NCBI GenBank assembly: GCA_007571325.1
Contig: RKRQ01000089.1
Span: 1 to 51,349 of the forward strand
Origin: Candidatus Dadabacteria bacterium
Lineage (GTDB): Bacteria; Desulfobacterota_D; UBA1144; Nemesobacterales; Nemesobacteraceae
Reading direction: 5' to 3'
DNA: 51,349 nucleotides
The notes beneath the pieces were generated by a model. That model ran no database searches, had not been told where the DNA came from, and was given only the letters and a program-made list of their open reading frames with translations. Position numbers and translations under genes: made by a program. Shown here piece by piece: positions 23,814-51,349 of the stretch (position 1 is its first letter; every line of letters begins with the position of its first letter).

Positions 23814-25277
23814 ATGTCCATTCCAAGAACCATAAAACAAACGGCAACATTGATAAAAAAAAGAGAAGTTTCCCCCACGGAGCTTACGGATCTTTTTCTT
23901 GAGCGCATATCCGTCCAGGATGAAAAAATAAACTCATACATAACCGTTTGGAAAAAGGCTGCCGTTGAGGCTGCCCTGATGGCCGAAAAAGAGATATCCA
24001 GAGGAAACTATCTGGGCCCCTTACATGGAGTCCCCATAGCGCTTAAGGATATTTTCGTAACAAAGAACTCGCGGACAACCTGCGGGTCGAAAATGCTGGA
24101 GAATTTTGTTGCCCCTTACGATTCCACCGTGGCCGAAAAACTTATTGCAAGCGGCTCGATAATACTTGGGAAAAACAACATGGACGAATTCGCCATGGGA
24201 TCTTCAAACGAAACATCCTACTTCGGGCCGGTAAAAAACCCCTGGGATACCGACAGGGTTCCGGGAGGGTCAAGCGGAGGCAGTGCCGCGGCAACGGCTG
24301 CAAATCTGTGTATAGCTTCAGTCGGAACAGATACAGGAGGTTCCATAAGGCAGCCCGGTTCGCTTTGCGGAATAGTGGGAATGAAACCTACCTATGGAAG
24401 AGTAAGCCGTTTTGGCATGATTGCCTTTGCGTCTTCCCTTGACCAGGCGGGACCGCTTACAAAGACCGTTGAAGACACGGCGATAATTCTTTCCTCCATA
24501 GCAGGCCATGACCCCCTGGACTCAACATCCGTAAACCTTCCAACAGTTGATTACGCAAGTGCGCTCAGTTCGGACATAAAGGGACTTCGAGTAGGCATAC
24601 CGAAGGAATACTTCGTTTCAGGAATGGATCCTGAAGTGGAGAAATCCGTCCGTGAAGCCATAGTCGAACTTGAAACTCTGGGAGCGGAAATTGTGGAGAT
24701 TTCACTTCCTCACTCCCGTTACGCAGTTTCAACCTATTATATAATAGCCCCTTCGGAAGCAAGCTCTAATCTCGCCAGGTACGATGGAGTACGATACACT
24801 TACCGCTGTGAGGAACCGGAGAGCTTAAGAGACCTCTTTTTCAGAAGCCGTTCGGAAGGATTCGGAGATGAGGTAAAACGAAGAATAATGCTTGGAACCT
24901 ATGCACTCTCCACAGGCTACTATGACGCCTATTACCTAAAAGCACAGAAGGTAAGAACCCTGATAATAAGAGATTTTGATAGGGCATGGGAAGAAGTTGA
25001 CGTTATAGCAAGCGCTACTTCTCCTGAAACTGCTTTTAGAATTGGTGAAAAGGCAGAGGACCCCTTGAAAATGTACCTATCTGATATACTCACCATTCCC
25101 TGTAACATAGCAGGTCTGCCGGGAATATCGGTTCCCTGCGGATTCAGTTCCGAGAAACTTCCAATAGGGCTTCAGATAATCGGAAAACCGTTTGACGAGC
25201 AGACAGTGCTAAATATCGCTTACGCCTATGAGCAAAGCACTAAATGGTACGAAAAAGAAGTTGCTTCACTAGGATAA
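23814..25277 (+). CDS. gatA: Asp/Glu-tRNA amidotransferase subunit A
   Basis: A 487-residue amidase-signature enzyme. The glycine- and serine-rich core [13 protein letters not shown] and [16 protein letters not shown] contains the catalytic serines, and the upstream catalytic lysine is in ALKDIFV. GatA hydrolyses glutamine and passes ammonia to GatB. Length and motifs are those of GatA rather than a general amidase, and gatC is directly upstream. It converges on rsmI with a 16-base gap. Confidence 0.97.
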
Positions 25278-45913: not shown

Positions 45914-47002
45914 TCAGTTCTCCGAAAGATTTTTCAGACTTTCGGCCTGAAAATGGGAAGTGAGTGGCTCAAGCAGAGGATCAAGGTCTCCTCTGAGCAC
46001 CTCCTCAACCTTATGGAGAGTCAGGCCTATTCTGTGATCTGTTATCCTTCCTTGGGGAAAGTTATAAGTTCTTATCTTCTCGCTTCTGTCACCACTTCCA
46101 ACTTGGGTTTTTCTTGTGCGGGAAATTTCGCGCACCCGTTTGCTCTCCTCCAACTCATAAAGTTTAGCGCGTAGCATGCTCATGGCATGAACTCTGTTTT
46201 TCTGCTGTGAGCGATCATCCTGACATTGTACAACTATTCCTGTGGGAAGATGCGTTATCCTTATAGCTGAATCTGTTTTGTTTACATGCTGACCCCCGGG
46301 ACCGGAGGATCTGAAAGTATCCACTTTTATCTCCTTATCATCTATTTCCACGTCAACCTCGTCAGCTTCGGGCAGCACGGCGACAGTCGCCGTGGACGTA
46401 TGTATCCTCCCGCCAGCCTCTGTAGATGGTATTCGCTGTACTCTGTGAACCCCGCTTTCATATCTGAGCTTACCGTAAACATCTCGCCCTTCAATCTTCA
46501 CAACAAGTTCTTTTATTCCTCCAATTCCTGTCTCGTTTATTGTTATGGTATCGACCTTCCAGCGGCGATTTTCACAATACCTTGAGTACATTCTGAGAAG
46601 GTCAGCCGCGAAAAGCGCCGCCTCTCCTCCTCCGGCTCCGGCTCTGATCTCAAGAAAAACGTTTTTGCCGATATTTGGATCTTTAGGCAAAAGAAGTTTT
46701 CTGAGTCTCTCTTCTAGCTCACTTCTCTCTTTAGAAAGCTCATTGAGTTCTTCGCGTGCAAGAGGGGCAAGTTCCCTGTCATCAAGTAATTCACGGCTTT
46801 GATTAGATATATCAACAACTTCTTTCAGCCTAGCGTAGACAGAAACCACGTCCTCAAGTTCAGAACGTTCCTTAGAACACCTGATTCTTTGTTGTGCGGA
46901 GATGTCAGGGGCACCGAGCTTTTTTTCAAGTTCAATGAACTTCCGCTCAAGCTCCTCAAGTTTTTCAAACAGCTTTCTGTCTTCTATGGGACTTGTTTCC
47001 AT
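45914..47002 (-). CDS. prfA: Peptide chain release factor 1
   Basis: A 362-residue class I release factor. The N-terminal coiled-coil is followed by EIRAGAGGGEAALFA, then HRVQRIPSTEAGGRIHTSTATVAV, and GGQ in SSGPGGQHVNKTDSAIRITH for peptidyl-tRNA hydrolysis. Length, the codon-recognition region and lack of the RF2-type sequence point to RF1, which reads UAA and UAG. No Shine-Dalgarno precedes the ATG; instead a CCTCC sequence lies there with a perfect TATAAT 11 bases upstream, suggesting a leaderless mRNA. Confidence 0.96.
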   Translation of the reverse strand: METSPIEDRKLFEKLEELERKFIELEKKLGAPDISAQQRIRCSKERSELEDVVSVYARLKEVVDISNQSRELLDDRELAPLAREELNELSKERSELEERLRKLLLPKDPNIGKNVFLEIRAGAGGGEAALFAADLLRMYSRYCENRRWKVDTITINETGIGGIKELVVKIEGRDVYGKLRYESGVHRVQRIPSTEAGGRIHTSTATVAVLPEADEVDVEIDDKEIKVDTFRSSGPGGQHVNKTDSAIRITHLPTGIVVQCQDDRSQQKNRVHAMSMLRAKLYELEESKRVREISRTRKTQVGSGDRSEKIRTYNFPQGRITDHRIGLTLHKVEEVLRGDLDPLLEPLTSHFQAESLKNLSEN

Positions 47003-47040: not shown

Positions 47041-48054
47041 AAAAAACCTCCGCCCTGAATTTCTATTAAGCAAGGTAAGCGAGAATTTTTAGGGTAAGAC
47101 GTCAAAATTTTTTTTATGATATCTATGGTGTCGCACTGAGCCATGTAGTGGGTTCTCTCAGACGCCTTCAAAAATCAAATATAAGGGTCAGGTCTTAAAA
47201 TTGACTCAAGACGTACTTCCCTCAGACACTCAATCAGTATGTAACCAAAGGCGGAGAAGTATATTCTCAACTGGTTTTAAACCATATACTGTGTAGGAGT
47301 ACGGTCTGAGAACAGCTGCAGTTGCTGAACTTCAATCCTTGTTTTCCATCTCTCCTTGGCACAATACGGCTCCTTGTAAAGAGTCTTTACGTCATATTGT
47401 TCATGTTTAAGCAGGATAGAAATTCTAATTGATGTTATACTGTATATTGATAAGGTTGTTCTCTGATTATATTCTAACTAGCTGAAATAATTATATTATA
47501 AGTACAAATAGCTTTTCCATGTCTCCTGTGAGAAATCCAGTCTTCTTCAAATAGTTTAGGTGAAAATTGAGGCCAATGCCTCTGATGACATAATCAAGCT
47601 TCAACTCTTTACGAACGCGTTTAATGATGCGCAATACACCCATGTAGTTACGCACCGGCAGTCGGTATGGCTCATTCATATAAAGCGGCAAGTGCCAATC
47701 GACAGCCAGCAAACTTTGTCATTGGCATTATGTGTCTACTTCACCAAACAGGGATATTCCCAAGTCAGAAGATAGCTTGTGGGTATTAGAGATAACTTTC
47801 TCTAGCACGATGGAAGGGGTCAAGTCTTGTAGAAAATCCCTCGCAGGCACGGAATCTTGAGAGTTGTGTGGTTTTGAAACGGACTTTGACCGACTATATG
47901 CAAAAAAACTTGCAAATGCTGGTTTTCAAGGTAAGTTAAATCGGCAATGTCGTAAAGCTTTTTTATCAAATATGAAAACTCCATTTGTTTAGCGTTACAC
48001 TTTGTGTTCATAAGGTTTTTGTCTTCTATCGTTTTAAGTTGCGAAGTGATTAGG
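47041..48054. other. Gene-poor stretch, probably decayed DNA
   Basis: About 1 kb between prfA and the repetitive surface-protein gene in which I recognise no intact gene. It contains several short minus-strand frames (47491-47712 and 47820-48011) that match no family I know. Two similar direct sequences, AAGGGTCAGGTCTT (47183) and AAGGGGTCAAGTCTT (47814), lie about 630 bases apart. There are small hairpins (TGGTTT-t-AAACCA at 47272; TAGAGA-taactt-TCTCTA at 47787). The AGGGTCAGGTCTT sequence resembles motifs I associate with the ends of REP-type or IS200-like elements, so a relic insertion is possible, but no transposase motif remains. Confidence 0.5.
47491..47712 (-). other. Short unrecognised frame, possible gene relic
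   Basis: A 73-codon frame on the minus strand without a credible ribosome-binding site and bounded upstream by an in-frame TGA. The composition (many Leu, Lys, Arg, Tyr; RIIKRVRKELKLDYVI) is protein-like rather than random, so it may be the tail of a former gene. No family recognised. Confidence 0.25.
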
Positions 48055-48076
48055 TTTTTTTACCCCCCCCCATTAT
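48055..48076 (+). promoter_or_regulatory. T7-A-C9 homopolymer tract in the promoter region of the surface-protein gene
   Basis: Seven T, one A and nine consecutive C (48063-48071) are followed at once by CATTAT, a four-of-six match to a -10 box, 28 bases before the ATG. A TTGCGA at 48039 is a possible -35 at abnormal distance. A poly-C tract placed like this resembles promoters whose strength switches with tract length, as in Neisseria opc and porA. The role is inferred. Confidence 0.45.
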
Positions 48077-48103
48077 GAGAAAGTTTAGGAAAAGGAGGAA
48101 AAA

Positions 48104-51100
48104 ATGGGATTATCTCTCTATTCCACTATGTACTACTTGTATTGTAGGCTAAACTACCTTACAGGCATTGTCTTAGCCGGTTTTATTTTAACTTTCCTTA
48201 TATATAACCATAGCACCTTTGCCACTCCGGTTCAAAACAACGAGTGTGGCTCCCTGCCATCTGCCAGCGGCACCATCACCTGCGACACCTCCACATACAG
48301 CACGTCGGGCGACGGGGGCATCTGGTACGATATAACTGCTTCCAGCACTTCTAACAAAAATTTCACGTTCGACTTAGATGATGAAATCGATATCAAATTC
48401 GTCACTGAGTACGATTCTGTTAACGGTTGGACTAAAATTCTCGACTCAGTTATGGAGAACGACCTTCACGGAAGTAAGTGCGATGACCCTTATGATTTCG
48501 GTGAATGTGAGGATGCCGCTGCTGTCAGGATTTTGAGGAATACTTATGTCGGGGACATAACCATCAATTCGTCTGCAAATATCGATGCAAGAACCAAGGA
48601 TGACTTCCATATTTTTGAGGACGAGGAGATGGGTATATATGTCAGGCAAAGGACTAAAGCCGACCTGACCCTGAACGCAACGGGCGGGACCATTATGTCT
48701 AGTGGGGAAGGTATATACTTAAGCCATACGGGTGCAAGCGGCGATATAAATCTAAACCTGTCCGGCGTCACAATCATTGCAGGTGATCGAGGCAATAATG
48801 ATGATGACAGCACTCCAGAACCGGTATCTAGTATAACACAAGGCGTTTTTGCGCAGATGGAACCCAGTACTACAGGTGATTTAACAATCACTATGTCTGG
48901 AGGAAGCATCAAAAATCTCTATGGACATGGCATCTTGGCAAATCAGGAAGGGAGAGGAACTTTAGACATAACGATATCGGGTACAGCGAAAATAGAGTCA
49001 GTGGATGCTTCCGGGGTCTCGGGGCTCCTTAGTTACAATAGTAGCAGTGGCTTTAGTAGCAGTGGCTTGAAAATTAATATGTTGGGAGGAAAAATCCATG
49101 TCGAGGGAAACCGAACTGGATCTGAAGGTAGAGCCCATGGTATCCATGCCCGGAAGAGTACTTCCAACACGGTGAATGGCGACTTCAATATAAAAATGTC
49201 CTGGGGAGAAATCGTGACAGAGAAAAAGCTCGCCCACGGTATTTTTGCAGATCAGATATGGACAGGGGACATCAATATCGATATGTCGGGGTATATCCAG
49301 ACGAAAAAATCAGAAGCTCTCGGCATCCACGGAAACCACACCGGAACCGGCGATATCACTATCAATCTGAAGGATGACGGATACATACGGACTGAAGGGT
49401 CAGAAGCCTACGGTATCTATGCAAACCACACCGGAACCGGTGATGTCGCCATCAATTTGAAGGACACCGACGATACCGAGACCAGTAAAATACAGACGGA
49501 GGGAAACGATTCCTACGGTATCTATGCAAACCACACCGGAGATGATGATATCACCATTGATGTATTCGGCGTTTTAATCCGGACGGGCGTAACCAAACAA
49601 GACGGGACGGTGACCGGAGACTCCGCCCACGGCATCTATGGAAAACACACAGGCGGTGGCGACCTGACTATCAGCCTGCGCGGCGAAGGAAAAATCCAGA
49701 CGATCGGAGACTCCGCCCACGGCATCTATGGCTACCGAACCGGAGCCGGTAGCGGTAAAATCAACATTGACATGTTTGTCGAGAGCGCCAATACCGGAGA
49801 CTGCAGCAGTAATAATACCGCAGACTGCGACATTCTGACCAAAGGTAACGACTCTCACGGTATTTATGGCTACCGAACCGGAAACGGCAACATTGACATC
49901 GATATCGATATGACCGGCGGAGACATTCTGACCGAAGGTACAGAATCCCACGGCATTTATGGCCGCCAATTCACCGGAAGCGGCAATATCGACATCGATA
50001 TGACCGGCGGCAGCATTCTGACCGAAGAGGTACGCTCCTACGGCATCTATGGAAACCATACAGGATCCGCTGCCAATTCTTCCGATAATGTAATCGATAT
50101 AAAGATGGCCGGCGGAGGTATTTTGACCAAGGGCGACTACGCCACCGGCATCAGGGGAATCAGCTCTACCGCAACCGGCGATGTCTCGATCGAACTTATG
50201 GGAGATGGCTCCATCCACACCCAAGGGGACTACGCCGAGGGCATCTATGGAAACTACACCGGAAACGGTGATCTCACGATCAGCCTGCGCGGTGGTAAAG
50301 GAGAAATCCAGACAACGGGAGACTCCGCCCACGGTATCTATGGAAATCACACCGGAAACGGTGATCTCACGATCAACTTCAACGGCTCCATTGAGACGTT
50401 AGGGGCGGGCGCTCATGGTATTCTCGCAAATCACAGTGGAACCACAGCCGATATATCCATTCACATGTCTGGCGGCAATGTCGTTACCCATGCCAGTGAC
50501 GCCTACCCGATCCATTTCATGTCCTCAAGCGCCAACAAAACCCTGACACTTAGCAACACCCTTATTGAACACGACATCGCAGACGGCAGTTTCGGAACTG
50601 CAATCAGCTTTTCGGGCAACAGCGACGACTTGTTGAGGGTCGAGGGTGGGGGTAAAACCACGATCCGTGGAGATGTGAATTTCTCTGAAGGAAATGACAG
50701 CCTCGTATTCTACACAGACCCAAACCAGGGAACCGTGGAGTTTGCCCATGAAGGCGGCATGATGATCGACCTTGAGCATATCTCCAAGATTGGTTCGGGA
50801 GTGGCGAGGCTACACTCTCTAAGCGTAGAGAGCGGGATTATGTCGCTTGAGAACGGCGATCTGCGTTTGAACGGCCATCTTGATCTCGGTGCAGACGGAG
50901 TTTTGATGATTCACGACCCGTCTCGGTTGATTTTTGAGTCAGGTGAAGAGCCGGATGACTACGGGCGTATAACGGCCAGTAAAGTAAGCTTCATGAGTCA
51001 GAACTCCAGGTTATATCTAAGTGAAGGAGCAAATCCTGCGCTTGACGAAAAGGACGTACTGCTGGTGAACTCGGAAGAACAAGAAGTCAAAGGAGGACAT

Positions 51101-51349
51101 TTCAGCACAGAACCCCCGGGTTCCGATCCAAACCCTGACGTGGAGCCTGTGCTATATGACGAGAACGATATGGAGATAGGTCTTGTCACGAACGACGGAA
51201 TCATTTGTTTAGCTGGCACTCCTAACAATTCTCCATGTCCATTAATTATCGAACCGCCGGACGACAAGGAACCGCCGGACGACAAGGAACCGCCGGACGA
51301 CAAGGAACCGCCGGACGACAAGGAACCGCCGGACGACAAGGAACCGCCG
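48104..51349 (+). CDS. Large secreted repetitive surface protein, autotransporter-passenger-like (3' end beyond window)
   Basis: An open frame of 1082 codons that I translated from ATG 48104 to the window edge without a stop; it is absent from the ORF track because it has no stop here. GGAGG lies five bases before the ATG. A long signal peptide contains YLTGIVLAGFILTFLIY and probably ends at STFA/TPVQ (about residue 41). Residues 175-790 hold about 17-18 imperfect repeats of the form AHGIYGNHTGNGDLTI plus a short strand and G-x-I-x-T, roughly 30 residues each, suiting a beta-helix or beta-roll. A non-repeat beta-rich region follows, then E-P-P-D-D-K tandem repeats. Autotransporter passengers have this order, with a C-terminal barrel expected downstream. 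An RTX-like or other adhesin is possible. Confidence 0.85.
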   Translation, partial: MGLSLYSTMYYLYCRLNYLTGIVLAGFILTFLIYNHSTFATPVQNNECGSLPSASGTITCDTSTYSTSGDGGIWYDITASSTSNKNFTFDLDDEIDIKFVTEYDSVNGWTKILDSVMENDLHGSKCDDPYDFGECEDAAAVRILRNTYVGDITINSSANIDARTKDDFHIFEDEEMGIYVRQRTKADLTLNATGGTIMSSGEGIYLSHTGASGDINLNLSGVTIIAGDRGNNDDDSTPEPVSSITQGVFAQMEPSTTGDLTITMSGGSIKNLYGHGILANQEGRGTLDITISGTAKIESVDASGVSGLLSYNSSSGFSSSGLKINMLGGKIHVEGNRTGSEGRAHGIHARKSTSNTVNGDFNIKMSWGEIVTEKKLAHGIFADQIWTGDINIDMSGYIQTKKSEALGIHGNHTGTGDITINLKDDGYIRTEGSEAYGIYANHTGTGDVAINLKDTDDTETSKIQTEGNDSYGIYANHTGDDDITIDVFGVLIRTGVTKQDGTVTGDSAHGIYGKHTGGGDLTISLRGEGKIQTIGDSAHGIYGYRTGAGSGKINIDMFVESANTGDCSSNNTADCDILTKGNDSHGIYGYRTGNGNIDIDIDMTGGDILTEGTESHGIYGRQFTGSGNIDIDMTGGSILTEEVRSYGIYGNHTGSAANSSDNVIDIKMAGGGILTKGDYATGIRGISSTATGDVSIELMGDGSIHTQGDYAEGIYGNYTGNGDLTISLRGGKGEIQTTGDSAHGIYGNHTGNGDLTINFNGSIETLGAGAHGILANHSGTTADISIHMSGGNVVTHASDAYPIHFMSSSANKTLTLSNTLIEHDIADGSFGTAISFSGNSDDLLRVEGGGKTTIRGDVNFSEGNDSLVFYTDPNQGTVEFAHEGGMMIDLEHISKIGSGVARLHSLSVESGIMSLENGDLRLNGHLDLGADGVLMIHDPSRLIFESGEEPDDYGRITASKVSFMSQNSRLYLSEGANPALDEKDVLLVNSEEQEVKGGHFSTEPPGSDPNPDVEPVLYDENDMEIGLVTNDGIICLAGTPNNSPCPLIIEPPDDKEPPDDKEPPDDKEPPDDKEPPDDKEPP
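48628..50480 (+). repeat. Array of about 17-18 diverged ~90-105 bp coding repeats
   Basis: The recurring protein core is HGIY followed by G/A-N-H-T-G-x-G-D-(I/L)-x-I and, about ten residues on, I-x-T-x-G. Units at 49317, 49407, 49512, 49626, 49716, 49854, 49947, 50037, 50232 and 50325 are the closest to each other; outer units are more diverged. Spacing varies because of inserts such as the DTDDTETS and CSSNNTADCD loops. Similar units in the middle suggest expansion by internal duplication. Confidence 0.85.
51251..51349 (+). repeat. 18-bp perfect tandem repeat, 5.5 copies, encoding EPPDDK
   Basis: GAACCGCCGGACGACAAG repeats without a single mismatch to the end of the window, in frame with the surface protein. 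It encodes a charged, proline-rich linker of the kind that separates a passenger from its membrane domain. The array continues beyond the window, so copy number is unknown. Confidence 0.97.

Follow-up and report, generated by a model that had tools for sequence, protein, structure and literature searches.

A run of nine cytosines lies in the leader of a large surface-protein gene at the end of the window, by which we mean the whole stretch of DNA analysed, 51,349 nucleotides long and corresponding to contig C55 of a 1.31-Mb genome in 105 contigs (completeness ~93%). We consider it probable that this C9 is a slippage-prone contingency tract through which expression of the surface protein phase-varies before translation. 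For the tract system of the genome and genus as a whole, phase variation by slippage is well supported. The preliminary description had proposed a phase-variation switch between possible promoter elements at this site: we recovered, in genome and genus, a C/G-tract system aimed at the surface-protein family of the window gene, but a promoter-spacer placement of the C9 itself was not seen. The features concerned are the following:

45914..47002, minus strand: prfA (peptide chain release factor 1), a conserved neighbor at one edge of the insertion
47047..48103, no strand: AT-rich stretch without coding sequence that forms the 5' portion of the insertion, with no match in relatives at the same place
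48055-48061 (T7) and 48062 (A), plus strand: T7-A directly 5' of the C tract, by sequence reading
48063-48071, plus strand: C9 homopolymer, the putative slippage tract, one of 12 genomic C/G runs of 9-10
48071-48076 (CATTAT) and 48074-48079 (TATGAG), plus strand: tentative, weak -10-like hexamers at or after the tract, with scores not above those of shuffled sequence
48086-48088, plus strand: in-frame TAG between the C9 and the start codon, by direct reading
48093-48098, plus strand: Shine-Dalgarno element (GGAGG), within AAAAGGAGGAAAAAATG, by direct reading
48104..51349, plus strand: surface-protein gene, with a signal-peptide-like N-terminus, an ECG..TITC motif and ~25-residue repeats of the form [HY]GI..H.G.GDI.I
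51251..51349, plus strand: tandem repeat with an 18-bp unit, GAACCGCCGGACGACAAG (EPPDDK), within which the contig ends and whose 99 bp also begin the continuation on contig C67 (C67 minus strand)

Positions 48055-48071 read TTTTTTTACCCCCCCCC and are followed by 32 bases and then by the ATG at 48104-48106; the T7-A-C9 element earlier claimed near the start of the surface gene is present at this distance, and the gene's open frame segment starts 17 nt 3' of the tract. Equally borne out is the claimed rarity of long C/G runs in the window, where the C9 is the sole C/G run of at least 7, next to two runs of C6 and none of G6, and where A/T runs of 8-9 are common. A nearest-neighbor, first-order model gives ~0.1 C9 per 51-kb window by chance, and a single C9, judged on the window alone, is suggestive only of being non-random. 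It is the genome-wide length distribution, and not the count in the window, that argues for its non-randomness. Pattern searches of the genome recovered 180, 6, 0, 9 and 3 exact C/G runs of 6, 7, 8, 9 and 10 bases respectively, a strongly two-peaked distribution with 12 runs of at least 9. As runs of 7-8 are nearly absent and those of 9-10 are present, the tracts of at least 9 are kept as a class of their own, distinct from ordinary runs, whose numbers drop with length. Across 13 genomes of the genus, C/G runs of 7, 8 and at least 9 number 419, 63 and 186, the last count including a few assembly artefacts such as a 51-base C run at a contig end. Elsewhere in the order the number of long tracts per genome varies from 0 to 26. 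The genome yielded no mutS, a gene present in 12 of 12 genus-mates; the site where it would be expected coincides with a break in the assembly, between contigs C82 and C22, so that loss of mutS is not inferable, and we dropped it as a cause of slippage.

The long tracts of this genome are concentrated on relatives of the window gene. The products of this family share an extended N-terminal region, a hydrophobic core and, ahead of the repeats, the motif ECG..(P)SGGGTI.C. Seven of the 12 long tracts lie at 5' ends of the family, eight members being assumed; the nominal probability of ~6e-17, which takes the tracts as independent, is overstated because some of them are paralogous and because the tract of the member on contig C18 lies slightly outside the modelled stretch. 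The paralogs on C23, C99 and C83 (the last with two tracts) have G9 in or at their first codons with the frame open, and that on C32 has a G10 such that the frame from the ATG ends just past the tract and the remainder is open in another frame. The tract of the C18 member, a G10, is 128 nt 5' of the start, that of the window gene is in the leader, and the family member on C41 is devoid of one. The second G9 of the C83 paralog (L181:13488-13496) is located 5 nt 5' of the ATG, at the place expected of the Shine-Dalgarno element, and may tune translation; the C32 paralog has a G6 at this place.

Two of the remaining tracts occur before a collagen-like lipoprotein gene (contig C104) and at a family-2 glycosyltransferase gene (C22). 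Three of the 12 have no evident surface gene beside them, namely those on C49 (beside parS-like sites), C82 and C3 (before a sugar epimerase-like gene). In other bacteria, lipoprotein, sugar epimerase-like and glycosyltransferase genes are commonly subject to phase variation. The tract on C49, a C9 (L179:7998-8059, near 24000), is 38 bp from the parS-like site TGTTTCACGTGAAACA, of which a second copy is found 1.5 kb further on.

The window gene runs off the end of contig C55 and continues on C67. The shared 99-bp repeat supports this join, and synteny confirms that the contigs are neighbors: in each of two sister genomes the block that ends at C67 position 14227 is followed within ~40 bp by the prfA block (from window 47046). 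The remaining genus genomes that we checked likewise lose synteny upstream of prfA at 47046. As the two sister genomes have only ~40 bp at this place, the surface gene and its leader constitute inserted DNA of 5.4 kb or more (window 47047-51349 and C67 14228-15394), and the gene is species-specific. The 1.1 kb upstream of the gene found no match in plasmids, and the tract flanks found none in viral contigs. The window protein itself has no Pfam match; its repeat passenger resembles that of a protein from a sister genome (G012:C6) whose end is a Pfam autotransporter domain (6e-20). The C-terminal part encoded on C67, 345 aa long and ending in MRIEFRF, looks by eye like an outer-membrane barrel; searches against Pfam, NCBIfam and PDB sequences gave no match for it, nor did it match the barrels of G011 and G012. 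The window protein may be a type Va autotransporter with a passenger of the beta-helix type. The family members on C18 (L175), on C41 (L184) and in G011 (L187) display a MYXO-CTERM-like tail (GGCSIG.., a hydrophobic stretch and a basic end) and no barrel. One kind of passenger thus appears to be combined with two different anchors in this surface-protein family.

The C9 had also been said to lie between possible promoter elements, and on this point our results differ: no sigma-70-like -35/-10 pair was found around the tract. A strict scan returned no such pair spanning the C9, the best pair at tract lengths of 6-14 was not above shuffled sequence, and there is no TTGAC within 12 nt 5' of the tract. 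Elsewhere in the genome the tract before the lipoprotein gene on C104 has the layout TTGACA-TTA-C9-ATG-TAGAGT, with the start codon 49 nt on; if the window matched this layout, a -35 element would be expected near 48055-48062. The nearest homologue of the window gene is found in the sister genome G011 (24% identity, E 2e-24); upstream of its ATG lies TTGACT-C9, with 69 nt between tract and ATG. Of 160 tract-strands in sister genomes, 15 have TTGAC at most 12 nt upstream, where 1.4 would be expected, and the downstream control has none; -10-like hexamers at these TTGAC-tracts show spacings of 13 to 20.

Eleven of the 15 promoters with TTGAC beside a tract are copies of one dispersed cassette located before unrelated genes, and for this reason the independent evidence from TTGAC comes down to about four cases and we dropped its use as broad proof of promoter tracts. 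The other four rows represent three independent cases, namely C104, the G011 homologue and one orthologous pair. These cases show that the genus does have promoter-type tracts and that one of them is at the window gene's nearest homologue. An opc-like promoter at the window C9 would be compatible with a weak -10 and no good -35 element. The cassette, which is lacking in the window, is found in G002, G010, G011 and G012 (copies at L197:101, L200:3010, L202:127, L203:101, L204:101 and 3952, L209:2924, L212:1723, L218:2948, L232:3004 and L242:2986) and is made up of ~60 nt that terminate in CTGTAATTTGAC, followed by a tract of G9-G13, a -10 region and finally GAAGTTTAACTGGAA. The cassette may carry slippage control from one gene to another. 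It had no transposase match, and the idea that it represents an insertion-sequence end was dropped.

Differences in tract length were seen on comparing orthologous or duplicated tracts, with one genome per species. The G9 of the C83 paralog corresponds to G10 in the C32 paralog, with flanks 86-92% identical; the same promoter has G13 (spacer 20) in G011 versus G9 (spacer 16) in G010, with flanks 99% identical; the tract in the dnaG leader is C9 in G010 versus C10 in G012; and another orthologous or duplicated pair has G9 versus G10. Some of the compared pairs are equal in length. The dnaG tract (L216:2991-2999, L238:3040-3049), which lies 16 nt before the start of the primase gene and is conserved in the two sister species, is an odd target for phase variation.

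In the mechanism that we favor, slipped-strand mispairing would add units to the C9 or remove them, and the resulting length would determine how much is transcribed from an overlapping promoter, a change in length altering the spacing or face between an upstream contact and the -10 element. The outcome would be graded or on/off expression of the surface protein in subpopulations, as with opc/porA in Neisseria. The lack of a recognizable promoter pair across the C9 is also what would be expected if the tract were hypermutable and functional but transcribed, with the promoter further upstream and the length of the tract within the 5' leader altering mRNA stability or translation; some leaders in the genus do have a tract near the start codon, such as that of dnaG. 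However, we found no better promoter upstream of the tract, the leader is less structured than shuffled sequences (z +2.3), and in predicted RNA folding the Shine-Dalgarno element is ~0.2 unpaired at all lengths from C7 to C13. Control by the length of a transcribed tract is on these grounds unlikely, and its particular form in which the C tract governs the Shine-Dalgarno element through RNA structure was set aside, as the predicted folding has no dependence on tract length.

That the C9 is instead an inert run devoid of regulatory effect, tolerated in a poorly constrained and recently inserted intergenic stretch, would be in keeping with the non-coding, species-specific nature of the flanking 1.1 kb and with the C9 frequency that nearest-neighbor chance alone provides per window. 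Against this stand the near absence of runs of 7-8 genome-wide alongside the presence of those of 9-10, the placement of seven of the 12 long runs at 5' ends within a single small family of genes, and the C9 likewise found in the leader of the G011 homologue, and we regard an inert run as rather improbable. The G9/G10 tracts within the first codons of the C23, C32, C83 and C99 paralogs bring to mind a further alternative, that the window gene truly starts upstream of the C9, which would then act as a frame-shift switch within the coding sequence. The TAG at 48086-48088 closes the frame before the ATG whatever the tract length, so that the length of the C9 cannot shift the reading frame of the gene, and a strong Shine-Dalgarno element precedes the ATG at 48104; provided that the bases read between tract and ATG are correct, we accordingly discarded this alternative as barely credible.

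At the level of the genus a broader scheme is conceivable, which we put forward tentatively as a possibility short of a probable one. Under this scheme the surface proteome of the genus would be governed by an entire contingency system of C/G tracts, comprising switches in 5' coding regions, tracts in leaders and promoters, and the dispersed TTGAC-polyG cassette that would place unrelated genes under slippage control, and the window gene would represent a recent, species-specific insertion with its own promoter-type switch. We have here an uncultured, small-genome lineage with about a dozen C/G tracts, of both promoter and coding type, concentrated on one exposed repeat-protein family. If the tracts vary in the population, the bacterium would make mixed surface types at random, and such a random mix, if true, suggests selection by host, phages or neighbors. 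A search of the open literature for phase variation in lineages of this sort, or in sponge-type symbionts, returned no paper. The proposed switch is of a known, opc/porA-like kind, and the lineage carries frame-switch tracts and promoter tracts alike.

Phase variation by homopolymeric tracts is best known from mucosal pathogens, and three such systems offer themselves for comparison. In Campylobacter both intergenic and intragenic G/C tracts occur (PMC8355987), and the present genome resembles it in having G/C tracts of at least 9 genome-wide at surface and glycan genes, in leaders as well as in 5' coding regions. It differs in belonging to another phylum, in the concentration of its tracts on one repeat-protein family and in the dispersed promoter cassette, tract included, that is found in its sister species. 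In Neisseria, the phase-variable autotransporters NalP and MspA have homopolymeric tracts within the coding sequence (PMC3723659); the 5'-end G9/G10 tracts of the window gene's paralogs, with their in-frame and out-of-frame states, are of this type, whereas the window gene's own tract is in the leader, outside the reading frame. The closest parallel is provided by porA, fetA and opc of Neisseria, in which homopolymers between the -35 and -10 elements change promoter activity (PMC2791445); for opc of Neisseria meningitidis a poly-C tract in the promoter region is cited from Sarkari 1994 in a later article (PMC3960869). Unlike these genes, the window represents an unrelated bacterium and protein and has no recognizable -35/-10 pair around the C9. 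Like them, it has a C or G homopolymer some tens of bases ahead of a surface-protein start codon, and the window C9 most likely works as the tracts of opc, porA and fetA do.
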